Origin: an uncultured Clostridia bacterium
GTDB taxonomy: Bacteria; Bacillota; Clostridia; Christensenellales; Borkfalkiaceae
Length of the DNA stretch: 47,035 nucleotides
Assembly: GCA_947629535.1 (NCBI GenBank)
Contig: CANREC010000005.1
Location: forward strand, 1 to 47,035
Direction of reading: 5' to 3'
Shown: positions 30,275 through 33,560 of the stretch, one piece after another
Layout of the letters: the number at the start of each line of letters is the position of its first letter
Numbering within the stretch: position 1 is the first letter of the stretch
Program-made: the position numbers and the translations under genes
Notes under the pieces: model-generated
What the model saw: the letters and a program-made list of their open reading frames with translations, nothing else
Told to the model about the DNA's origin: nothing
Database searches by the model: none

Positions 30275-31705
30275 TTATATTTGGGAATTTTTAAGGGGAA
30301 CCGACCCCTGTGGGAGCTTGGCCGTCTCACGCGCCATCGGGCAAAGCTTTTTTCGGATCGCCGCACGGAGAAAGAACAGCGAGACAGCGGCTGTGAGAAC
30401 TTCCGCAAGGGGAAACGCCCACCAGACGGTCCCTTCGGCGCCCGCGGAGAGCGTAAGGAGCCACACAGCCGGAAAGACGAACACGGCAAGCCTCAGACAG
30501 GATATGACGAGCGGGGCGAGCGCGTATCCGAGCGCCTGCAAGACGCCCTGCACGGCGATGCTGAACCCCATGAAGAGGTAGCCGATGCTTGCGATGCGCA
30601 CGGCGAGGGAGACGACGCCGACGATCTCCTCTCCGCCCGTTCCGCTCGCCATGCCGAATATGCCCGCAAGGGGATCCGCAAGCGCCTCAAAGAGAACAGT
30701 GATACATGCGGAGACGATCAGAGTGTTGGCGATCCCCCACCTGACACAGGCGCGGGAATGTTCCGCATCCCCCATGCCATAGTTGTAGGAGAGCACGGAA
30801 ATGATGGTATTAGAGAGCCCGAAACAGGCAAAGAGCGCAAACTGCATGATCTTGTAGTAGATGCCGAAACTCCCCTGTATGAGGTCGGCATTCTCCGCCG
30901 TGCCGAGGATGAGATCGACGCCGAGCATCATCACGGACAAGAGCCCCTGCATGAGCGCCGCAGAGAGACCGATGTGGTAGATCTCGCCGATAATTTTTGC
31001 GCTCGGAAGGATATTTTTGAGGCCGTTGCCGAGTTCCCGATTGAAAAAATAGTGGAAAAACATCGCGACAAGCAGCGACAGCACCTGACCGATGACCGTC
31101 GCCCAAGCGGCTCCCGCGACGCCCCACCCGAGAGGATAGATGAAGATATAATCGAGGACGATGTTCGCCGCGGCGCCCGAGATCTGGGCGATCGTGGAAA
31201 AGAGCGTTTTCCCTGTGCTCTGCAGGAAACGTTCGTAGATCGTGAATCCGATCGCGCCGAAGGAACAGGTCGTACAGATCGTGAGATATTCCGTCCCGAT
31301 CTCCGTCACAAAGGCGTCGCCGTTAGATTGCATGGCGATGAACGGCCTCGCACCGAACAGGCCGAAGAGAAGAAAAACGGCGTAGATGCAAAGACCTAAA
31401 AAGATACCGTTCCCGACTGTTCTGTCCGCCTTTTGACGATTCCCCTCGCCGAGGGATTTGGAGAGGAGCGCATTGATCCCCACACCCGTCCCGACGCCGA
31501 CGGCGATGATGAGAAGCTGCACGGGGAAAGCAAAGGTGAGCGCGAGATTCCCCGCAACGCCCTCTTCCCCCATGTTGATGACGAAGGCCGTATCGACGAT
31601 GTTGTAGACGGCCTGCAGGATCATGGAAACGATCATGGGAAGACCCATCTTCCAAATGAGACCGCATACGGACCCGCCCGACATCTTGTTTGCCTTTTCT
31701 TCCAT
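30275..31705 (-). CDS. MATE-family multidrug exporter (leftward copy)
   Basis: A 476-residue membrane protein with twelve predicted helices, the MATE length and pattern. Landmarks are GLIWKMGLPMIVSMILQAVY, NIVDTAFVINMGEEGVAGN in helix 1-2, GVGTGVGINALLSKSLGEGN, and in the second half LIQGSFGIYYKIMQF and LSYNYGMGDAEHSRACVR. MATE proteins export cationic drugs or metabolites in exchange for sodium or protons. The start at 31705 has AAGGAG upstream. It is transcribed from its own promoter through a short leader containing a terminator (31726-31760). It is divergent from a second, distinct MATE gene. Confidence 0.93.
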   Translation of the reverse strand: MEEKANKMSGGSVCGLIWKMGLPMIVSMILQAVYNIVDTAFVINMGEEGVAGNLALTFAFPVQLLIIAVGVGTGVGINALLSKSLGEGNRQKADRTVGNGIFLGLCIYAVFLLFGLFGARPFIAMQSNGDAFVTEIGTEYLTICTTCSFGAIGFTIYERFLQSTGKTLFSTIAQISGAAANIVLDYIFIYPLGWGVAGAAWATVIGQVLSLLVAMFFHYFFNRELGNGLKNILPSAKIIGEIYHIGLSAALMQGLLSVMMLGVDLILGTAENADLIQGSFGIYYKIMQFALFACFGLSNTIISVLSYNYGMGDAEHSRACVRWGIANTLIVSACITVLFEALADPLAGIFGMASGTGGEEIVGVVSLAVRIASIGYLFMGFSIAVQGVLQALGYALAPLVISCLRLAVFVFPAVWLLTLSAGAEGTVWWAFPLAEVLTAAVSLFFLRAAIRKKLCPMARETAKLPQGSVPLKNSQI

Positions 31706-31725
31706 AAAAACTCCTTTTTGCACAG

Positions 31726-31760
31726 AAAAAGGGGCGTAGATCCAATTGGATTTACGCCCC
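31726..31760 (-). terminator. Terminator inside the leftward MATE leader
   Basis: A long stem-loop, arms from GGGGCGTA (31731-31738) to TACGCCCC (31753-31760) around a CCAATTGG core with one mismatch. On the minus strand five U follow (complement of 31726-31730). It lies between the promoter and the ribosome site, so it is an attenuator rather than an end terminator. Confidence 0.8.
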
Positions 31761-31785
31761 CTTGCAAGCAACACATTGTAGCCAT

Positions 31786-31814
31786 ATTATATGCTTTGAG
31801 AGAAATTTTGTCAA
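31786..31814 (-). promoter_or_regulatory. SigA-type promoter of the leftward MATE gene
   Basis: Minus strand TTGACA (31809-31814), 17-nt spacer, TATAAT (31786-31791). Leader about 74 nt. Confidence 0.85.
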
Positions 31815-31878
31815 CCGAATTTCCGCCCCACCGCGACAAAAAAATAAAATTTTCCTTCTCCAAACGATAAAAATCGGT

Positions 31879-31907
31879 TTGACTTTCCAAAAAAATTCTG
31901 TTACAAT
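31879..31907 (+). promoter_or_regulatory. SigA-type promoter of the rightward MATE gene
   Basis: TTGACT (31879-31884), 17-nt spacer, TACAAT (31902-31907). Transcription should begin near 31914. Confidence 0.85.
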
Positions 31908-31913
31908 ATGTGA

Positions 31914-32030
31914 AAATTTCATAGAGCTGAACGACACATGTGGCGCTTTGCGCGTAAATCTGATTACGGTACGAAGCCAGTGCAGGTGTCGTTTTTTGAA
32001 CGGCACGGACGAACCTGTGCCGTTTTTGCT
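31914..32030 (+). promoter_or_regulatory. Structured terminator-containing leader of the rightward MATE gene; candidate riboswitch
   Basis: The leader starts with a stem AACGACAC (31930-31937)/GTGTCGTT (31986-31993) enclosing TGGC (31941-31944)/GCCA (31976-31979) and small inner hairpins (GCGCTTTGCGC; GTAA...TTAC), then TTTTTT. A second, separate terminator follows: arms AACGGCAC (31999-32006) and GTGCCGTT (32017-32024), then T residues, ending before GGAGG. A structured domain plus terminator upstream of a MATE gene is the context of the guanidine-IV (mepA) riboswitch. I could not check its consensus, so the class is a suggestion only. The 342-bp region between the two MATE start codons holds nothing else. 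Confidence 0.6.
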
Positions 32031-32047
32031 CTTTCTTGGAGGTTTCT

Positions 32048-33436
32048 ATGGAAAACAGCGACTATTTGGGCAAAGAAAAGGTCGGAAAACTCCTATTGAG
32101 GTTTGCCGTCCCCTGCATTCTCTCGCTCGTCATCTCCTGCCTGTACAACATCGTGGACCAGATCTTTGTCGGAAACAGCAAAGCGGGCTACCTCGGCAAT
32201 GCGGCGACGGGCGTCGTCTTTCCCATCACCGTCATCGGATGGGGCCTGTCCCTCTTCTTTGGCGACGGCGCAGCGGCATGGCTCTCCGTCTCGCTCGGCA
32301 AAGGAGAACGTGAAAATATCCACCGCGGCGTGGGGAATGCCATGCTTGCATCTTTCCTTTCGGGTTGCGCGGTCATTCTCGTCGCTTACCTCTGGGGAGA
32401 CGGTCTCCTCATGCTCCTCGGCGGAACAGAAGCAAATCTCGGGCTCGCCCATGACTATGGCATCATCATTTACGCCATGATGCCCCTCGCTCTTGTTCAG
32501 AATTGCCTTGCGGCCATCATCCGCGCAGACGGTGCGCCCGGATACGCCATGATCGCGATGATCGTCGGCGCGGTTCTCAATATCATCGGCGACCCCGTTG
32601 CGATCTATACCCTCGATCTCGGCATACAGGGGGCCGCTTATGCCACCATTCTTGGCCAATTTGTGAGCTTTATCCTCTGCGCCGCCTATCTTTTTCGCAG
32701 TAAAACATTCAAAATTCGCCTTGGTAGCTTTATTCCTGACTTCAAAGTCCTGCCCAAGATCATGGCGCTCGGCATGTCGAGCTTTCTGACACAGCTGTGC
32801 ATCGTTGCCACGACGATCATCAACAATCTCCTCTTCGTACACTACGGCACAGAGAGCAGATTCGGCGCGGACATCCCTCTCGCTGCCTTTGTCGTCATCA
32901 TGAAACTCTTCCAGATCGTCCTTAATATCGCGATCGGCATCGCGGCGGGCGCACAGCCCATCATCGGCTACAATTACGGCGCAAAGCAGTACGGAAGAGT
33001 GAGAAAGCTCCTGCAGCTCATCCTGCTATGGACGGCGGGGATCTGCCTATTCTTTACCGTCCTTTTCGAGGCGATCCCCCGCACTTTCATCGCGATGTTC
33101 GGCGCAGGCGGGTCCTCGCAGAAGCTCGACAGCGGTCTCTACATGGAGTTCGCTGTCCCCTGTCTCAGGATATACCTGATGTTTATCGCCTTTACTTGCC
33201 TGCAAAAGGTCTCGGCGATCTTCATGCAGTCGATCGGATATGCGAAAATCGCCGCCCCGCTTTCCTTCCTCAGGGACATTCTGCTCATCGTCTGCGCCTT
33301 CCTCGTCCCCCTCGGACTTGGGCTCATGGGCGTCGCTTGGGCAGCGCCGATCGCCGACGCTGTCGCCATTGTCGGAACGGCGCCCGTCATGGTATGGATA
33401 TGGAAAAAGCTAAAAAAATTGGAGATAACAACATAA
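32048..33436 (+). CDS. MATE-family multidrug exporter (rightward copy)
   Basis: A 462-residue, twelve-helix MATE protein, closer to the MepA-like branch: LLLRFAVPCILSLVISCLYN, IVDQIFVGNSKAGYLGNAAT, FFGDGAAAWLSVSLGKGERE, and IAAGAQPIIGYNYGAKQYGR in the second half. MepA-type MATE proteins pump cationic compounds. It has GGAGG seven bases before the ATG and a leader that contains two terminator-like hairpins, so expression is probably switched on by a ligand or by translation. It differs clearly from the leftward neighbour, so this is not a recent duplication. Confidence 0.93.
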   Translation: MENSDYLGKEKVGKLLLRFAVPCILSLVISCLYNIVDQIFVGNSKAGYLGNAATGVVFPITVIGWGLSLFFGDGAAAWLSVSLGKGERENIHRGVGNAMLASFLSGCAVILVAYLWGDGLLMLLGGTEANLGLAHDYGIIIYAMMPLALVQNCLAAIIRADGAPGYAMIAMIVGAVLNIIGDPVAIYTLDLGIQGAAYATILGQFVSFILCAAYLFRSKTFKIRLGSFIPDFKVLPKIMALGMSSFLTQLCIVATTIINNLLFVHYGTESRFGADIPLAAFVVIMKLFQIVLNIAIGIAAGAQPIIGYNYGAKQYGRVRKLLQLILLWTAGICLFFTVLFEAIPRTFIAMFGAGGSSQKLDSGLYMEFAVPCLRIYLMFIAFTCLQKVSAIFMQSIGYAKIAAPLSFLRDILLIVCAFLVPLGLGLMGVAWAAPIADAVAIVGTAPVMVWIWKKLKKLEITT

Positions 33437-33441
33437 AAAGA

Positions 33442-33486
33442 ACGTATTCACAGTATTATGTCTGACATAGTACTATGAATACGGTG
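33442..33486. terminator. Bidirectional terminator between MATE and clpB (palindromic element, copy C)
   Basis: Two 20-nt arms (33444-33463 and 33465-33484) are complementary apart from two positions, with TTTTT to the right and, on the minus strand, TTCTTTTT beyond. The core 33456-33474 is identical to 19 nt at 9803-9821. Confidence 0.75.
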
Positions 33487-33493
33487 TTTTTGA

Positions 33494-33560
33494 AGGGGTA
33501 AAGCCTTCGTTTGAGGGGACCCTTCCCCTTCGACTACGCTCAAGGTCAGAATGAGCGGAG
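33494..33560. repeat. Intergenic repeat block downstream of clpB
   Basis: Contains CTTCGACTACGCTCAAGGTC and AGAATGAGCGG, a degenerate member of the CTTCGAC...CTCAGGATGAC type. CAGAATGAGCGG recurs at 37760-37771. Confidence 0.55.

Follow-up and report, generated by a model that had tools for sequence, protein, structure and literature searches.

The intergenic region at 31706–32047 of the window (the whole 47,035-nucleotide stretch analysed here) separates two divergent MATE genes, one on the minus strand at 30275–31705 and one on the plus strand at 32048–33436. It raises the question of what controls the rightward gene. The initial annotation had proposed that the leader of this gene is a riboswitch or attenuator, and offered guanidine-IV as the preferred class, with a divergent relative or a new class as the other options. 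The genes and expression signals of the locus are as follows.

30275–31705, minus strand: MATE transporter of 476 amino acids, the leftward gene, with a family profile match
31786–31814, minus strand: perfect promoter TTGACA-N17-TATAAT, 5' of the leftward MATE gene
31879–31907, plus strand: sigma-70 type promoter TTGACT-N17-TACAAT, with TG preceding the second hexamer
about 32038–32042, plus strand: ribosome site GGAGG, read from the sequence, with ATG at 32048
32048–33436, plus strand: MATE efflux transporter of 462 amino acids, reaching the TIGR00797 and PF01554 cut-offs

The promoter previously read ahead of the rightward gene is present at the position assigned to it, including the TG before the -10 element, and we infer that the rightward transcript begins near 31914, about 17 nt 5' of ACGAC. 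The gene itself had been called MepA-like. Its placement among MATE transporters stands (170.3 bits with TIGR00797, cut-off 147.4), whereas MepA does not, as NF000131 gave 104.4 bits against a cut-off of 850. On the 3' side of the gene, at 33437–33500, an inverted repeat read by eye (CGTATTCA...TGAATACG, then T's) is likely its end terminator.

The leader contains, at 31926–31977, the window copy of a conserved RNA that we call motif A. Across 160 distinct copies, gathered with an expression that fixed most of both conserved strands, the order of its parts is the P1 5' strand, AACGACACAnGUn, the hairpin P2, GUAAAUCUGAUYACGGnAC and P1'. In the window, motif A and the structures that overlap or follow it occupy the following positions.

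31926–31928, plus strand: 5' side of P1 (GCU), the helix that would close the proposed aptamer, pairing with 31975–31977
31930–31942, plus strand: conserved 5' strand AACGACACAUGUG (A[C/U]GACACAnGUn), which doubles as the 5' arm of terminator 1
31943–31953, plus strand: P2 hairpin GCGC-UUU-GCGC, stem 31943–31946/31950–31953, with covariation
31954–31972, plus strand: 3' strand GUAAAUCUGAUUACGGUAC, conserved among copies
31975–31977, plus strand: P1 3' strand AGC, partner of 31926–31928
31930–31997, plus strand: terminator 1, the proposed OFF state, with arms 31930–31937/31986–31993 (8 bp) running into U6 at 31992–31997
31986–32006, plus strand: possible antiterminator hairpin GUGUCGUUU/GAACGGCAC, 31986–31994 with 31998–32006, exclusive with terminators 1 and 2
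31998–32027, plus strand: terminator 2, an 11-bp stem with a loop of 6 (hairpin 31998–32025) and a U-run

Motif A recurs upstream of related genes. In same-genus genomes, the core lies upstream of all ten orthologs of the rightward MATE gene (71–83% identity) and of one of three more distant homologues (43–44%), being present at L013 and absent at L012 and L014. At the latter two loci the final 150 bases before position 1501 hold other terminator-like hairpins in place of motif A (GCGUAGAAUUUCGACAG; tandem GCGUAUAAUUCGAUGG). A 20-base pattern allowing one mismatch was matched in 16 of 297 genomes of the order, at least three of which (L038, L041 and L047) resemble chance, while a covariance model built from 21 copies (R1) found 38 of 396 order genomes, with a single match in each. 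R2, a broader model made from 35 copies, matched 10 of 398 genomes of the phylum, two of them weakly and probably falsely; L100 and L101 (27.5 and 23.2 bits in the phylum search) were judged false and kept out of the 160. Divergent copies in L091, L092 and L176 were missed by the expression behind that set.

The exact 19-base pattern of the 3' strand was found in at least 117 stretches of species genomes. Every one of the 117 matches listed scored at least 39 bits with R2, and 116 of them have A[C/U]GACACAnGU, the 5' strand, no more than 50 bases away, a sequence absent from the search pattern, so that this test is free of the by-construction bias affecting the conservation figures of the 160 copies. 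Chance matches to a slightly shorter pattern in viruses had the 5' strand in 0 of 58 contigs and none scored above 23.1 bits; a search of plasmids gave one match, also chance. Among the matches listed, the 80 with titles are mostly from Clostridia (Lachnospiraceae, Oscillospiraceae, Ruminococcus, Pseudobutyrivibrio, Clostridium and MAGs), the others being two Eggerthellaceae MAGs, an Adlercreutzia and a Treponema MAG. The leader is a member of an apparently uncatalogued family of folded RNAs that precede membrane-transporter genes in many gut bacteria.

Covariation across homologous leaders, which the initial annotation had named as a check, was found, and it is clearest in P2. Two-sided changes occur at all four P2 pairs (35 sequences), 93.6% of cells pair, and neither the share paired nor the covariation score was reached in any of 500 shuffles, while weaker measures that count pairs or types were reached in 39 and 45 of 500. 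A P2 stem of at least 3 bp is possible in 160/160 copies, with the first pair open in some; the second pair, among 120 copies, is UA in 58, CG in 50, AU in 10 and UG in 2, and the loop varies in length from copy to copy. By mutual information (118 sequences) the four P2 pairs rank at the top, followed at rank 5 by the P1 pair -4:+7; the P1 pair -3:+6 ranks tenth, with four same-strand pairs above it. P1, which in the window is only 3 bp long, covaries at these two pairs, modestly in a fixed register and better when the register is left free, and at least 4 weighted P1 pairs can form in 42% of 120 copies versus 20% when shuffled (best of 500 shuffles, 32%). The inner helix supported by the data is therefore P2, at 31943–31946/31950–31953. 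A different one, CGUAA/UUACG, had been taken from the minimum-energy fold; it lacks covariation, and 11 of the 32 sequences that have letters there fail to form one of its pairs.

The full leader folds to -49.4 kcal/mol versus -35.2 for shuffled sequences (z -3.96, with 0/200 shuffles as good), and the first domain alone gives z -1.96 with 6/200 shuffles its equal; it is conservation upstream of transporter genes, rather than folding energy, that raises the leader above chance. A plain terminator or DNA operator kept by descent alone might be expected where terminators are common, as they are between divergent genes, and where close orthologs share much sequence. Such a relic would not account for P2 pairing that is kept as its letters change, nor for the strands outside the helices being the most conserved part of motif A across distant taxa, and we give this explanation next to no credence. 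Upstream of the motif, a -10-like hexamer lies within 60 nt in 136/160 copies, its end most commonly falling 24–26 nt before ACGAC (42/136).

The leader had also been described as a compact folded domain followed by an independent intrinsic terminator near 31999–32030. The second element was borne out as an 11-bp hairpin followed by U's. As to the first, its outer arms AACGACAC (31930–31937) and GTGTCGTT (31986–31993) do pair, but the arms are themselves terminator-like, so that the supposed compact domain is the OFF-state terminator 1 and the leader has two terminators in series. At the variable base of the terminator 1 5' arm, the partner pairs in 127 of the 149 copies with a recognisable arm, compared with at most 99 in 1000 shuffles, and all four Watson-Crick types are present; the position is unpaired in the other 22, and 11/160 copies have no arm by this test. 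The 3' arm of the terminator is, in addition, complementary to the P2 5' strand within the same copy, with 2.74 pairs versus 2.06 when arms are swapped between copies (2.30 at most in 200 swaps; 152 copies) and at least 4 pairs in 40/152 copies versus 23.0 swapped (at most 33), which means that in part of the copies P2 is also taken apart by the terminator. These shuffles and swaps treat the sequences as independent, with kinship uncorrected. A coarser test of terminator pairing separates own from swapped arms only in part because ACACA/UGUGU is invariant: out of 160, own arms versus the swapped maximum gave 138 versus 112 at score 8, 144 versus 138 at score 7 and 152 versus 147 at score 6.

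Since the terminator arm covaries with both the 5' strand and the P2 5' strand, aptamer and terminator are mutually exclusive. One conserved strand thus serves either the conserved fold or the intrinsic terminator, as expected of a terminator-embedded aptamer. A second, separate terminator is found in 53/160 copies by our own criteria, which include a few one-terminator copies, and its loop differs among orthologs. In these 53 copies the complementarity of the antiterminator strands averages 8.02 versus 6.80 when swapped (maximum 7.17), and at least 8 pairs are possible in 32/53 versus 19.6 swapped (at most 26).

Taken together, these data suggest that the leader is a cis-acting transcription-attenuation RNA, and most likely an ON riboswitch of a kind without an Rfam match. 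We infer a small-molecule ligand, the ON direction and the timing of the switch; the direction follows from the mutual exclusion of aptamer and terminator, and the mode of action is proposed by analogy with the HMP-PP-like arrangement of an aptamer embedded in a terminator. The ligand is probably a compound that the pumps export. With ligand absent, the conserved AACGACACAUGU would pair with the downstream GUGUCGUU to form terminator 1, terminator 2 would form after it, and transcription would end before the MATE gene. With ligand present, the 5' strand, P2, GUAAAUCUGAUUACGGUAC and the short closing helix P1 would assemble into the aptamer, withholding the 5' strand from terminator 1, and the freed GUGUCGUU could then engage the 5' arm of terminator 2, allowing read-through. 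On this ON model, altering GUAAAUCUGAU would lock the leader OFF.

The energies place demands on such a switch. The OFF fold is far more stable, at -49.4 versus -34.5 kcal/mol with the core held open (the energies of the aptamer core and of the ligand being left out of the count), so that switching would have to be co-transcriptional. When the aptamer is held open, a transcript that ends at 32010 still folds with the antiterminator, and those ending at 32020 and 32031 no longer do. In the window the antiterminator is worth -10.8 kcal/mol versus -17.0 for terminator 2; because terminator 2 wins at equilibrium, read-through of the window copy is not explained by energies alone and would have to be kinetic, and for this copy the model is genuinely weak on that point.

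The same elements could be wired in the opposite sense, with hairpin 1 (31930–31993) forming part of the ligand-bound fold and ligand causing termination. In favour of such an OFF switch, hairpin 1 is thermodynamically preferred and includes the conserved strands. The terminator arm, however, complements the P2 5' strand (40/152 copies) while P2 itself covaries, and one state cannot use both pairings; induction by the exported compound, the usual rule for exporters, also speaks against termination by ligand, and we regard an OFF switch as improbable. Attenuation by a stalled ribosome on a leader peptide might be suspected from an ATG in the window core, which opens a frame through the leader, and from the ATG present in 119/160 cores. 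Yet the corresponding frame of L005 stops within the core, P2 loop lengths vary, and an RBS-like sequence precedes the ATG in only 2/119, on which ground we rejected a leader peptide; its probability is close to nil. The ON riboswitch remains our preferred reading of the leader.

Whether such a riboswitch would belong to the guanidine-IV class could be addressed by comparison with published descriptions. Rfam 15 (4227 models) gave 0 matches over the whole window at the gathering threshold; with E up to 10, the lowest E in 31700–32200 was 0.068, for mgtC_leader on the minus strand (21.6 bits versus 48), and the best plus-strand score in that interval was 15.9 for purD (versus 41). Motif A in ten relatives and eight distant loci likewise had no Rfam match. 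The model search suggested in the initial annotation therefore returned nothing on motif A, in a release that may lack a guanidine-IV model. True guanidine-IV sequence was also sought by Rfam in 30 SMR loci (19 + 11) and none was found, with Guanidine-I, as a positive control, found in 3 of the 19; the highest R2 score on the 30 loci was 10.7 bits (E 0.72). The guanidine-IV base-spacing pattern, applied to 22 of these loci, yielded two matches, about 900–950 bases upstream of the gene, which we judged to be chance.

The layout described for RNAs of the guanidine-IV type is a 5' hairpin plus a terminator hairpin with a conserved loop (PMC7736828, PMC9788692, PMC12186494), and the text of PMC7736828 gives the conserved bases of this second loop in the L. 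lactis RNA as G62, U63, G66, U67, A71 and G72. A 4-bp hairpin in the 18 nt before the motif A core is possible in 28/160 copies, which is rarer than the mean of 48.7 for shuffled letters, and conservation over the 160 copies stays at or below 0.52 bits at every position between -45 and -2. The G-U-N3-A-G of the second loop, a spacing derived from the base numbers in the text of PMC7736828 and not from an alignment, is found at no single place in more than 2/160 copies of motif A, or in more than 2/34 of motif B, a related RNA considered below. No SMR or transaminase gene is found among the 152/160 copies whose gene matched a query family.

Motif A accordingly does not look like guanidine-IV, being set apart from its published description by the absence of a conserved 5' hairpin, of a conserved terminator loop and of SMR genes among those classified. 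The orphan variant Gd4v, compared by description only, is disfavoured because motif A has no conserved upstream hairpin and its downstream genes in 152/160 copies belong to other families. In favour of guanidine-IV or Gd4v, MATE genes follow some of these RNAs, their 3' hairpin is a terminator, and Gd4v is described as gut-enriched in PMC9788692; against this stand the features missing from 160 copies, the gene context and, with the caveat on Rfam 15 already given, the lack of any match, and we consider membership in either very improbable. The broader proposal of a riboswitch or attenuator, by comparison, gains strong support from conservation, covariation and gene context, and the last of the three options, a new class, fits best. 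Text searches of the literature, including literal motif strings, returned no report of the motif, within a scope that excluded supplements and subscription journals, and the passages on MATE, multidrug or efflux in the main text of PMC8632094, PMC11109978, PMC2864571, PMC8040213 and PMC6429828 describe no such motif.

The genes that follow motif A were classified with tblastn on the first 1200 bases, counting only the first gene of each of the 160 copies. This gene is DUF2798-like in 88, MATE in 55, MFS in 8 and other or none in 9, the last comprising one gene without a Pfam or NCBIfam match (L205) and eight unrecognised cases, three of which lie within 120 bases of a contig end. The DUF2798-like product is a membrane protein of roughly 190 amino acids with a predicted structure at pLDDT 92.6. 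Its assignment rests on the 47 of 54 small-protein members that match Pfam DUF2798 at E ≤1 (best 2.8e-6); one member tested scores above the curated cut-off, the first two scanned had no Pfam match at E 0.001, and for two members a search up to E 10 still gave no hit to DUF2798. The four MFS proteins tested hit MFS_1 and show a resemblance to the EmrB/LmrB group, scoring below the cut-offs of the latter.

Some loci exhibit variations in this arrangement. In Adlercreutzia agrestimuris (L179, 1747–3645), the MFS protein encoded downstream of motif A has two C-terminal CBS-domain matches. In the Treponema MAG (L170, 4906–4959), a motif A copy precedes a citramalate synthase gene, and this copy could reflect a contaminating contig or a real transfer. 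At L143 (Clostridium bovifaecis), L174 (C. zeae) and L114, motif A is present, but the gene expected behind it seems disrupted or absent.

The conserved strands could also be bound by a protein, acting as antiterminator or repressor, in place of a small molecule, and protein binding has been considered for another terminator motif, PBC-10 (PMC6429828). Arguing against a protein are the 27 positions that are at least 94% conserved (a figure owed in part to the collecting expression) over 160 copies from Clostridia, Eggerthellaceae and one Treponema MAG, the single match per genome, and a first downstream gene, the only one classified, that is nearly always a membrane protein. We hold protein binding to be unlikely, though the least so of the alternatives weighed here, and retain the ON riboswitch as the most likely reading of motif A.

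The leader of the leftward MATE gene carries a second motif. The region 31728–31790 on the minus strand is conserved in orthologs, and within it we identified the following features of what we call motif B.

31742–31779, minus strand: motif B core (UGUGUUGC-P2-GCGUAAAUCC...), 41.1 bits with model R3, the window copy being among the 19 source copies of R3
31728–31763, minus strand: motif B hairpin resembling a terminator, with the conserved GGCGUAAAUCC in its 5' arm, z -4.78 with 0/200 shuffles as good

Motif B is smaller than motif A. Its core is AnnGYGnGUnGC-P2-GCGUAArUCCAr, of which nGUnGC-P2-GCGUAArUC is common to motif A; motif A has an extra ACGACA...UGAUnACGGnAC module, and motif B has CCAr in its place. 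On the strength of this shared sequence we propose that motif B is a relative of motif A. It has no Rfam match, and the window copy was not detected by R2. At E 0.01 its own model, R3 (19 copies), found matches in 23 of 200 genomes of the order, four of them above E 0.002; three of the 23 (G000, G054 and G058) had supplied copies to the model. Two-sided changes occur at 2/3 of its P2 pairs (19 sequences), which is weaker than for motif A. Among 34 rows of motif B, one of which (L342) repeats a copy from L015, tblastn places a MATE homologue within the next 1300 bases in 29, the other 5 having no query match.

In the window, motifs A and B stand back to back between the divergent MATE genes. 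Of the 117 loci collected for motif A, 98 were searched for motif B, and 8 of these contain it, L198 only at E 0.0055, and six of the eight are members of the model. The two motifs are divergent, as in the window, at L134 (4528–4724). The order is A-DUF2798-B-MATE at L182 (3297–4059), B-MATE-A-DUF2798 on the minus strand of L146 (3156–4857) and B-B-MATE-A-MATE at L133 (213–362 and 1972–2021); tandem copies of motif B occur in G058, G071, L133 and L178. Tentatively, with our doubts slightly outweighing our confidence, motifs A and B may represent two designs within a single new riboswitch superfamily that share the core [nGUnGC]-P2-[GCGUAArUC], and they may sense two related compounds or a single compound at two sensitivities, with terminators invading different sides of the core; the DUF2798 proteins would in that case export this compound or assist in its export.

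A widespread class of orphan RNAs that precedes MATE, MFS and DUF2798-like genes in anaerobes of gut and rumen offers a handle on the substrates of these pumps, and the context of motif A is a first clue to DUF2798. The adjoining sister motifs A and B permit a test of how aptamers diverge, and motif A provides another example of a terminator-embedded aptamer, in a leader that has two successive terminators.

Among known systems, the closest in layout is the HMP-PP riboswitch (thiS motif), which as described in PMC6478431 is likewise a small aptamer inside an intrinsic terminator, acts as an ON switch, and has conserved bases that a plain terminator does not need as well as a competing P1/P2 fold. 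The comparison is one of layout; HMP-PP controls thiamin genes, and the window leader differs in having two terminators. Guanidine-IV (mepA motif), according to PMC7736828, PMC12186494 and PMC11611296, resembles motif A in preceding MATE genes, acting on transcription, involving a terminator and occurring in several phyla, but it requires a pseudoknot between a loop of the terminator hairpin and a second, distant loop, and most often stands ahead of sugE (SMR) genes. Gd4v, as portrayed in PMC9788692, is also an orphan, gut-enriched and terminator-based, with MATE among its genes, whereas it comprises two hairpins plus a pseudoknot and is associated with a transaminase (main gene PRK07324) in over half of cases. 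Finally, HRC-8-4, which we liken to motif A by its description in PMC8632094 only, has the gene context hvrB, unlike motif A, and shares with it a terminator stem, there with conserved bases at the tip, and a proposed role as an ON switch.
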